A DNA stretch of 64,000 nt from Temnopleurus reevesii (Eukaryota; Echinodermata; Echinoidea; Temnopleuroida; Temnopleuridae), in assembly GCA_036244855.1 (NCBI GenBank), contig BQKZ01001085.1, positions 41,095 to 105,094 on the forward strand, read 5' to 3'. The notes below the pieces were generated by a model that searched no databases, was not told the origin of the DNA, and saw nothing but the letters and a program-made list of their open reading frames with translations. Both the position numbers and the translations under genes were made by a program. This document shows positions 14,153 to 33,900 of this stretch, piece by piece. Position 1 is the stretch's first letter; each line of letters opens with the position of its first letter.

Positions 14153-17100
14153 GTTGAATGTAGATGGTTTATTGGTTTACTTCCCCTATGACTACATCTA
14201 CCCAGAGCAGTTTATGTACATGCTAGAGCTGAAAAAGCTCCTAGATGCAAAGGTATGAACTTAAATGACTATTAAAATTTCATGGAGTAGACTCTTTATG
14301 ATGATAACATCCCTATGTATTATAGGCTAATTTAAAACAGACCGATGAATTGAATTTGTCTGTTTGCACAAGTTCATTTGATTTTGAATCATAAAGGGGA
14401 GACAAATTTCTCCACCAAGATTGTTCAATTGAATTAAAATCTGATTTTTATGAAAATATTTCTTAAGAATTTGAATGATTGTACTGATGTTAGTTGAATT
14501 CATTTAAAAATCATGATGATGGTTGGTATAAATATGCAAAAGCTTTGCTTATTTCTACATTTTCCAAATCATTTAATGGAACTAGATGCTACTTAAATGC
14601 ATAATATTTGAACAATTCTTACACAAGATGTTACAGTGGAAACTCAATATAAAGATGCAGGGCCCCTTGGTAGATCAATTTTATTATTAAAAGGGCTACC
14701 CTGTATAAAGAAGACCTGAATAAAAGAGGTCTTATACAGAAATGTTTCTGATATAAAGATTTAAATAATCTGGTCCCAGCTCTTTCTAACTTAATGTTTT
14801 TCAATCCTGCTGTAACGAGATTACTGATTTAACAAGGCATTTTTGATGGTCTTGAGCACCTCATTATGCTGAGTTTCTACTTTGTTTCTCAATGAATATC
14901 CAATTTATTTCTCAATGAATCTCTAGGGTCATGGAGTGCTAGAGATGCCCTCGGGTACAGGGAAGACCGTGTCTCTCTTAGCTCTCATCGTCGCCTATAT
15001 CAGGACAAATCCACACATTCTAACCAAGCTCATCTACTGCTCCAGAACTGTTCCTGAAATTGAAAAGGTTTGAATTAGTTTTTGCTTACGTAATATAAAC
15101 CACAGATGTATTATTTAATATCAATAAATTGCTTGTGGAGAAGAGAAATCAATGTTATTAATTTAAATGAATAGGAATAAAATGTTAAAATGATCAGTAA
15201 ACAAACATCTGACAATGATCATGCGAAAAGCTAATTTTGCACTTGAATCCCTGGACGGTACAAGTCTTTGTTTAGTAAAACCTGCAGCATATTTGATAAG
15301 CAACTGAGGGGTTTTATCCATACGATATGTATTAGACAAATTATTGATAGAATGGATTTATGAAATGGTTAATGTATGCTATTGTAAATCAGCATTGCTA
15401 AGCATTCAAAATGATTCATCATTATGCTGTATCCTAATTTTCTGTCTTAATTTAGTTATATATTTTGAATTATGAGATATTCATGCAAATTTCATTATTA
15501 CCATATTTCGTTCAGGCTGTGGAAGAACTAAGAAGACTTTTGGACTACATTGAGGAAGAGACTGGTGAAAAACCAAACTTTGTTGGTCTGGCACTAAGCT
15601 CTAGAAAGAATCTATGTATTCATCCAGAGGTGAGTGTGTTGACAGACTGGTGAAAACCACTTTGTTTGATGTAACACTAAGCTCTAGAAAGAATCTGTGT
15701 ATTCATCCAGAAGTGAGTACGTGTCGATAGACAGGTAAAAAATCAAACTCTGTGGGTCTCGCTCTAAGCTCAAGAATGAATATTTGTGTTCATCCAGTGG
15801 TATCAAGTGTAATGGCAGAGGAGTCAAATATTAAATTTTGTTGATCTCACACTAACGCTCTCAAAAGAATATGTACATTCATTTAGAGGTGAGTGTGTGT
15901 CGACAGATGGGTGATAAATCAGACTTTGTTGGTCTGGCTCTAAGCTCTGGATTCAGAATTTGTCTTCATCCATAAGTAAGTGTTTGACTGATGAAAGAGC
16001 TGTAGAGCAGCCTGGTGAAAATCAGATTTTGCTCTGGCGCCAATTTCTGGAAAGAAACTATGCTTTCAGCTTGAGGTGAGTGTGTTTTTAGAGACTCAAA
16101 AGCTATGATGCAGACTGGTGCAAAAAAACCCCCCAATTTGTTAGATTGGCACTATGCTTTCGAAACAAAGGGGGCATGAGGAAGTTTGATAAACAGTTTT
16201 ATGAAGTTGAATTTTGTCCTTTCAAACCTTTCAAGCCGTATGTAAGCCTAATTTACAACAGATTTTAAATTTTATCTGAAAATGATACATTAACATTGTA
16301 GTGATCTCCTGAGAAAGTAGATATGATATCAGATAGTATAGTCTAGTTTATTCAAACTAAATCAAACATAATATAGGCACAGAATAAAAAGCAAGAAGTT
16401 CAGAATGATTTGGGATCCCGGTGAAGCACAGTTTGTGGACCTGAATTTAGAGCAAATTAAATTTTTAATGGGTCAGAAAAAAATATAAAGAAAGATTTTT
16501 GTGGAACTCCACTGGCTTATCTCCTTACAGTTAGTTAAACAAAGAACACTGGTAAGTAAAGTATACAAGGCGATTTACTGAAATCAGCACATACACAAAA
16601 AACAATGCACATGAATATAGCTAGAGCCCAGCTCTGTCAGTAATTACCTCGACTGACTTTGATAATACTTCAGGCTTTGCTACAATGGATGTTGAATACC
16701 AAATGGAGATCTACAAATTCATTAAGTAAAAAAAGGATTAGGAGTTTCATTTCCTACATTGAAAAAACAATTTGCATAAATTTTGCGAATATGAAGATGG
16801 GAGAATTAATTTTAGTTATTTACTCGTATCTTCGTCACAATACCCAAGGAAGGAGACCCTTAAGTTACGAAAATTCTTGATGAAGGTATACAGATTTTGG
16901 ATAAACTACCAACTTTCATGTTAGACCAGAGAGCCTGGCATAGCATTATAGATTTATTCTTGGATGTGTCTGATTTGTAGAAGTAGTAGTATAATATTGA
17001 TATGATCACTGCATGCTGCTTTTTCAGAGGAAGTATCATCAAAATAACTACCAATTACTTGGGCAAGCAGATTTATAAGATGTTCTCAAATCATACATGA

Positions 17101-33373: not shown

Positions 33374-33900
33374 ATATGAACTCACATAGGCCAGACTTAG
33401 CAAGGCTTGTGTGTCTTCTTCTGGAGCAGATTGATGTGGATGAGAGACTGCAAGTCAGTGAGAATATGGACCTACCTCAGTATGAGCAACTAAAACTGGT
33501 TTCTCTGCTGGTGGATGATAGACTATAGCAAACTGTTCATCCAGTCTAAATATGAACTTACATGGGCCAGACTTTCCAAAGCTTTGCTGACTGCTTCTGG
33601 AACTACTTAATGTGGTTGAGAAGGTGATATTCTGTCAGAAAATGGATCTACATAGACAGGAACAATTGAAGTGGGTTTATCTTTTCCTGGAGCTTATGTT
33701 TGGATGTGAGACCACAGAAAACTGTTCGTCCAGCCTAAGTATATAAAGGCAGGAACAACTTGGACCAGCCTTTCTGCTACTTGATCTTGTGACTTTGGTT
33801 GAGAGACTGATGCAAAACTTTTGAACTTTTATTCAATGAGGAGCTACTAAATGTTGATGAGAAACTCAACAAAATGATTCATCCGGTTTGCACTAGACTT
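33353..33900 (+). repeat. Tandem repeat spanning the ERCC2 stop codon and 3' UTR
   Basis: AACTGTTCATCCAGTCTGAATATGAACT, which includes the ERCC2 stop codon TGA at 33371-33373, recurs from about 33529, again (diverged) from about 33719, and weakly from about 33868. The period is about 150-190 bases. The downstream parts of each unit (GGCCAGACTT, CTTCTGGA, TTGAGAGACTG) also recur. The last coding residues (LNQTVHPV) therefore belong to the first unit. Confidence 0.85.

Follow-up and report, generated by a model that had tools for sequence, protein, structure and literature searches.

Partial tandem copies of exons in the ERCC2/XPD gene and in other housekeeping genes of the sea urchin Temnopleurus reevesii

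Background

Head-to-tail copies of exons within a single gene are known from Dscam-type genes, in which tandem exons are used in a mutually exclusive manner. In Daphnia Dscam there is no sign of gene conversion between the copies, according to the excerpt of the report cited here (PMC3236188). Short tandem duplications inside genes are commonly observed (Gao & Lynch 2009, as quoted in excerpts of PMC4974935 and PMC3443670), and in a potato RdRp gene an intron-exon stretch has been duplicated (PMC4974935, excerpt). In the AGGT model of intron gain, duplication of an exonic AGGT segment gives rise to a new intron within the coding sequence. Head-to-tail units with diverging copies are, finally, a feature of intronic minisatellites and VNTRs.

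The ERCC2 (XPD) gene of Temnopleurus reevesii shares features with all of these systems and differs from each of them. Like Dscam-type genes it possesses head-to-tail exon copies; in contrast to them, most of its copies are partial, retain at most one splice site and carry length changes or stop codons. Compared to the AGGT model, as far as the excerpts describe it, no new intron is needed: the ERCC2 decoys sit in an old intron and the protein is unchanged. A new intron of AGGT origin was not found in the ERCC2 coding sequence, and the duplicated units cross existing exon edges. Unlike intronic minisatellites, the units hold exon sequence, often together with a splice site, and one copy is under coding constraint. 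Among the titles and abstract openings in the partly capped listings of our literature search, none dealt with a sea-urchin genome rich in partial exon arrays, which does not prove that such an account is lacking.

Results and discussion

The ERCC2 gene and its arrays

The window, i.e. the whole stretch of 64,000 nucleotides analysed here, belongs to an assembly of 558 Mb in 10,433 contigs, and all counts given below derive from this single fragmented assembly. Exons were mapped with a human XPD sequence as query, and their edges were snapped to AG/GT. Joined exons 2-22 comprise 758 stop-free codons, and their product is 74.1% identical to this human sequence over 730 residues, ungapped. It contains the Pfam domains DEAD_2, HBB and Helicase_C_2, its top matches among solved structures are the XPD subunits of TFIIH, and the closest of the named relatives is Lytechinus variegatus (95% identity), followed by Diadema setosum (87%). 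The original prediction had assumed a canonical XPD of 760 residues: the frame is indeed intact, but 758 of the 760 codons are seen, as exon 1 was not found in the window, in which an N gap occupies 13246-13979. A protein search located the true XPD gene on contig C1084 only, the remaining matches on C2074 and C6822 being distant paralogues (30-43% identical); consequently the ERCC2 locus is described from one haplotype. In the XPD gene model of another organism (P0002, eukprot source; 980 residues) a block of about 200 residues is present twice, owing either to duplication within the protein or to an error of the model.

Self-comparison and Tandem Repeats Finder revealed tandem arrays at five of the 21 exons, namely exons 4, 9, 11, 19 and the exon with the stop codon. 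The copies are arranged head-to-tail as in minisatellites, with periods of about 85, 160-170, 170, 176 and 200. The features are as follows:

14153..33372, + strand: ERCC2/XPD gene, exons 2-22 (21 exons), frame intact (human XPD mapping, Pfam, structure matches)
15516..15629, + strand: working exon 4, first in its own array (exon mapping)
15630..16086, + strand: five further copies of the exon 4 array (c2-c6), each the 3' part of the exon with the donor region and without acceptor, period ~85
21953..22086, + strand: working exon 9, 134 nt (exon mapping)
22148..22287, + strand: exon 9 copy 2 (exon 9b), whole, 140 nt, with both splice sites retained, an open frame and 6 nt inserted in frame
22356..22489, + strand: exon 9 copy 3, whole exon, in-frame stop, weakened acceptor
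24279..24320, + strand: exon 10 fragment downstream of exon 10 (self-comparison)
24534..24652, + strand: working exon 11 (exon mapping)
24741..25692, + strand: downstream copies of the 3' part of exon 11, five clear (c2-c6) and two weaker (c7, c8)
29604..29935, + strand: two upstream copies of the exon 19 array, acceptor and 5' part of the exon without its 3' part and donor, period ~170
29964..30118, + strand: working exon 19, last copy of its array (exon mapping)
31457..31609, + strand: array of two 74-bp units in intron 20, free of exon sequence, within an inverted-repeat element (31101-32228)
33281..33372, + strand: last coding exon with the stop codon (exon mapping)
33353..33742, + strand: array of the stop-codon segment and its 3' flank, period ~176 (self-comparison only)

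The exon 4 array spans 15559-16086 in total, with a weak seventh copy reaching about 16165, and the length of the exon part has changed in four of its five extra copies. The exon 9 array (21935-22521, period ~200) consists of three whole-exon copies including the working one, both extra copies carrying acceptor and donor. The exon 11 array covers 24573-25440, with weaker copies up to 25694 at a spacing of mostly 160-170; the exon 19 array covers 29604-30080, and a weak, possible older remnant of it lies at about 29442-29513. Further decayed copies of the stop-codon segment extend to about 33900. None of the arrays (five at exons, one intronic) is wholly intra-exonic, and the arrays of exons 4, 11 and 19, with their partial copies, contain a single complete exon each.

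The copied exons foreseen in the original prediction are thus present, and its view of many separate duplications in a gene that still works is supported. The proposed ages likewise hold: copies of exons 9 and 19 look young (84-93% identity), those of exon 4 (70-80%) and the later ones of exon 11 (72-87% over the array) old. Exon 10, on the other hand, does not belong among the arrayed exons, as just one 42-bp fragment (88%) of it was found, and the supposed eight extra copies shrink to the five clear and two weaker ones of exon 11. Units consisting always of a piece of exon and adjoining intron are true of exons 4, 11 and 19, but the copies of exon 9 are whole exons. Chance similarity as a source of the arrays is ruled out by 20 dinucleotide shuffles of 14-34 kb, which yielded 0 arrays under the same settings, and processed or retrotransposed copies are ruled out by the intron sequence that the units carry on one or both sides.

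Several other repeats were recorded in the window. The inverted-repeat (foldback-like) element of intron 20 possesses arms at 31283-31542 and 31923-32184 (73%) and holds the 74-bp tandem duplication. Transposon-like 35-bp inverted repeats with G runs (97%; 23018-23052 and 23710-23744) surround about 660 bp of intron 9. A 482-bp stretch (18822-19303), perhaps a transposable element, recurs inverted at 57571-58052 with 97% identity. Outside ERCC2, tandem arrays are found at 61684-62082 (period 210) and 50651-50955 (period 117), and open frames on the + strand of 1-2303, with an 18-bp in-frame repeat at 2167-2224, presumably belong to a gene resembling family 1 glycoside hydrolases, judging from their motifs.

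Lone splice sites and the survival of the gene

We consider it likely that true head-to-tail duplication, of a type that occurs repeatedly in this genome and is not specific to ERCC2, produced the arrays, that their lone splice sites are ignored so that they are close to neutral, and that the copies exchange sequence. The duplication units measure about 85-260 bp. Where such a unit crosses one exon edge, it leaves one complete exon and copies with at most one splice site, the lone site being an acceptor upstream of the working exon (exon 19) or a donor downstream of it (exons 4 and 11). The single complete exon in each of these three arrays follows from this geometry, which explains the survival of the gene. 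Weak selection in introns, as suggested in the original prediction, is part of the answer, in that units crossing one exon edge leave a complete exon behind. This account leaves out exon 9 copy 2, which is a complete, open exon.

In exon definition, splice sites are paired across the exon. Lone sites would then be disregarded, the gene would work and the duplication would be nearly neutral. The splice sites of the decoys were scored with a matrix built from the gene's own sites, among them the working ones; leave-one-out scores run from 3.3 to 11.2 (donors) and from 1.5 to 14.1 (acceptors). Among the exon 4 copies, the donors of c4 and c6 score 11.0, equal to the working donor, those of c2, c3 and c5 6.6, 2.2 and 6.9. 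In the exon 11 array, c2 keeps the sequence and score of the working donor (9.2), c6 has a weak GT (2.8), and c3-c5 lack a GT at that position. Decoys that score like the working donor hence amount to two of five for exon 4 and one of five for exon 11. The decoy acceptors of exon 19 score 9.4 compared to 11.2 for the working acceptor. Some decoys would be indistinguishable from the working site by strength alone, and it would be the pairing across the exon that sets them apart.

Silent differences and probable exchange between copies

Unequal exchange and gene conversion would account for the growth of the arrays and for the traffic of sequence between copies, and conversion would also shuttle silent changes between the decoys and the working exon. 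A further reading goes beyond this: the untranslated partial copies would act as donors to the working exon, conversion would run in both directions with only silent changes surviving, silent evolution of the exon would be much faster than in other exons of the same gene, and the decoys would stay unexpectedly protein-like. We regard it as a tentative proposal, somewhat more doubtful than probable.

The counts of silent to replacement differences differ between arrays. A dead copy is expected to show about 40% silent differences, an estimate from site counts, and pairs within one array are not independent. Exon 4 matches this expectation with 15 of 43 silent (2:3, 6:6, 3:5, 1:6 and 3:8; total 15:28), and the other arrays lie above it: 8:3 and 4:4 for the exon 9 copies versus the working exon, and 5:3, 7:2, 5:3, 6:5, 9:8 and 5:3 for copies c2-c6 and c8 of exon 11. 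The exon 19 copies differ from the working exon by 8:0 and 10:0 and among themselves by 4:0, and a neutral-copy model fits them worse than a constrained one (2 delta lnL = 23). Outside ERCC2, a TCP1-like gene shows 5:1, 9:4 and 5:2, and a CCT6-like gene 8:3 and 4:3 against the working exon and 5:0 between copies. Judged by these counts, the copies beyond exon 4 are not simply decaying. Conversion from the working copy alone is insufficient for exon 19, because its decoys differ from that copy at 31-41% of silent sites with zero amino-acid change; exchange with a diverged allele is a possible source of this silent divergence.

The donor reading includes the idea that array exons are perhaps somewhat faster in protein too. 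A faster protein change in the array exons of ERCC2 on the lineage of this species (8/203 versus 8/555 residues, Fisher P 0.045; exon 10, with 0/57, placed among the non-array exons) is too weak to rely on: all differences of ERCC2 from Lytechinus amount to 14/203 in array exons and 23/555 elsewhere (P 0.13), and those on the Lytechinus lineage to 3/203 and 9/555 (P 1.0).

A BRIP1-like gene present on two contigs (C326 and C6822; 92.7-94% identity in long aligned blocks, lower elsewhere) allows a comparison of an array with its counterpart. Noncoding divergence between the contigs is 5.8% (52/897 sites, one array-free block), a value compatible with allelic differences in a highly polymorphic animal, with recent paralogues as an alternative. 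Both contigs possess the three-copy array in register, with the same stop codon in the first copy. A comparison of the contigs shows 10 differences at the 30.3 silent sites of the working array exon, eight of them in the duplicated part, and 0 replacements, versus 4 of 34.7 and 0 of 35.0 silent sites (4 of 69.7) in two non-array exons. Copy 1 differs at 1/145 sites, copy 2 at 18/140. On C6822, copy 2 agrees with the working exon over 15 successive sites of the 28 that vary (P 0.006 in a global permutation test from which the identical first copies were excluded as a pair). At the eight sites of the duplicated part that differ between the working exons, the C6822 state occurs in a decoy at 8/8 and the C326 state at 5/8. 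Patterns at single sites are mixed: three group the copies by position, five by contig and one crosswise. These comparisons suggest, as the simplest account, conversion between decoy and working exon, including from decoy to exon, with selection letting silent changes pass. In this the BRIP1-like gene would differ from Daphnia Dscam as described in the excerpt cited above.

Exon arrays in other genes

The original prediction suggested that the locus may be prone to short tandem duplication, perhaps through slippage linked to transcription or repair; in a special hot spot, some property of its transcription, repair or sequence would promote such events. ERCC2 contains six arrays in 19.2 kb, where the density of random stretches predicts 2.6 (Poisson P 0.05). 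For this density, 13 stretches were taken at round contig numbers, of which five read wholly as N and were dropped (L016, L019, L020, L023, L027); in the remaining eight, 9 arrays were counted over 66,354 non-N bases, a count that follows the removal of four arrays with complexity under 0.5 and excludes L014 and L015, two stretches from the contig of the window itself. Five of the six ERCC2 arrays touch exons, compared to a mean of 1.45 for random units (P 0.004); by footprint a mean of 3.2 is expected, and chance is not beaten (P 0.13). Longer survival of exon-bearing arrays may contribute to the excess.

The share of arrayed exons in ERCC2 (5/21) was set against that in the chaperonins. The Cpn60_TCP1 family search gave 39 matches; two tandem repeats of a counted exon were left out, as were five matches on C4964, a contig regarded as the other haplotype of C903, which leaves 32 exon positions in nine loci. 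These loci were self-compared with 4-11 kb around them (C1246 being two-thirds N), and five of the 32 positions, in four of the nine loci, are tandemly copied:

C1774: TCP1-like gene, two exon arrays
C2665: CCT6-like gene, one exon array
C4367: CCT7-like gene, one exon array
C2461: CCT2-like gene, one exon array

On C903, the CCT8-like gene at first showed a marginal array at an exon edge, which was not recovered from a longer stretch and stands outside the 5/32, and repeats on C47, which flank an exon and do not contain it, were not counted. Among the relatives of XPD, the BRIP1-like gene and an RTEL1-like gene (C10175) have one exon array each. The MCM genes show just one duplicated position in 28 and one locus in seven, in a profile search that misses short copies; this one was confirmed on the DNA. 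A special hot spot is therefore unlikely: the small excess of arrays, the 5/21 exons touched and the low MCM count speak for it, but five of 32 chaperonin exon positions are arrayed as well and the BRIP1-, RTEL1- and MCM-like genes carry exon arrays too, so that within the sample reached the special proneness of the locus is not supported. The opposite extreme, that most genes carry such arrays, finds some backing in the 4/9 chaperonin loci but not in the 1/7 MCM-like loci (profile level). On this small sample from one assembly, ERCC2 lies at the high end of a trait found in other genes too, and the share of housekeeping exons with such copies is perhaps one in ten to one in six.

Further observations were made at these loci. 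Both partial copies of the CCT6-like array (L031 1945-2604) resemble a human CCT6 sequence at three positions that are changed in the working exon. On C2074, one set of DDX11-like exons occurs in two stretches 9,254 bases apart (L011 and L012), with 99.1% identity over 1,563 bases; either a segment was duplicated recently or haplotypes were misjoined. The CCT8-like gene on C903 and C4964 (L032-L035, L041) is 99.8% identical over 3.9 kb in one stretch and 68-97% elsewhere, with a 1.55 kb insertion in one contig. A two-copy array on C4964 coincides with this insertion and was dropped as a case of copy-number difference. Copy number that varies between haplotypes is a mark of minisatellites and VNTRs: the BRIP1-like array numbers three copies in both contigs, and a low-complexity intronic array at the CCT8-like locus apparently differs in copy number between its two contigs.

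Function of the extra copies

The extra copies might instead be functional, either as alternative or mutually exclusive exons or as selected splice regulators. The absence of amino-acid change in exon 19, with its likelihood difference of 23 to neutral decay, and the 5:0 between the CCT6-like copies are in line with this. Exon 9b resembles Dscam-type exons: it is complete and open, its acceptor scores 3.9 (working 4.6) and its donor 7.6 (working 11.7), and joint inclusion of the 134 nt of exon 9 and the 140 nt of copy 2 would shift the frame, as in exclusive pairs. Yet one of the two splice sites is missing from the majority of ERCC2 copies, the exon 4 copies look neutral (15:28), and exon 9 copy 3 combines its stop codon with an acceptor score of -2.2. 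A function of the copies in general is accordingly improbable, a little more so than a hot spot.

Haplotypes and assembly

Unmerged haplotypes of a very polymorphic genome, anchored in conserved exons and joined head to tail, could produce apparent arrays. The exon 19 copies are distinguished by silent changes alone, as alleles would be, and the assembly seems to keep both haplotypes at some loci. But the arrays contain at least three mutually different copies, intron-like linkers are common to the copies without continuing into the rest of the exon, and copies bear length changes and stops. The BRIP1-like gene, whose two contigs were assembled separately and agree in the register of the array, counts against a single bad join; together with the decayed copies it speaks against simple haplotype misjoins as the general cause. 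Of the explanations weighed here an assembly artefact is the least credible, and we hold it to be very unlikely.

Conclusions

The notable remainder is that partial exon arrays are frequent in housekeeping genes of one sea-urchin genome, and that decoys and working exons show signs of sequence exchange, both as judged from small samples of one assembly. If recurrent duplications with ignored splice sites are the correct reading, an animal genome can tolerate partial copies next to a considerable fraction of its housekeeping exons, with gene function kept. The arrays would then be natural tests of exon definition, in which good acceptors and donors adjoining the true ones have to be ignored. 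If working exons receive silent changes from decoys, their synonymous rates would not serve as a neutral clock, and alleles called from short reads over the arrays could be misleading. Should the copies act as donors, such a genome would possess a widespread local source of coding variation.
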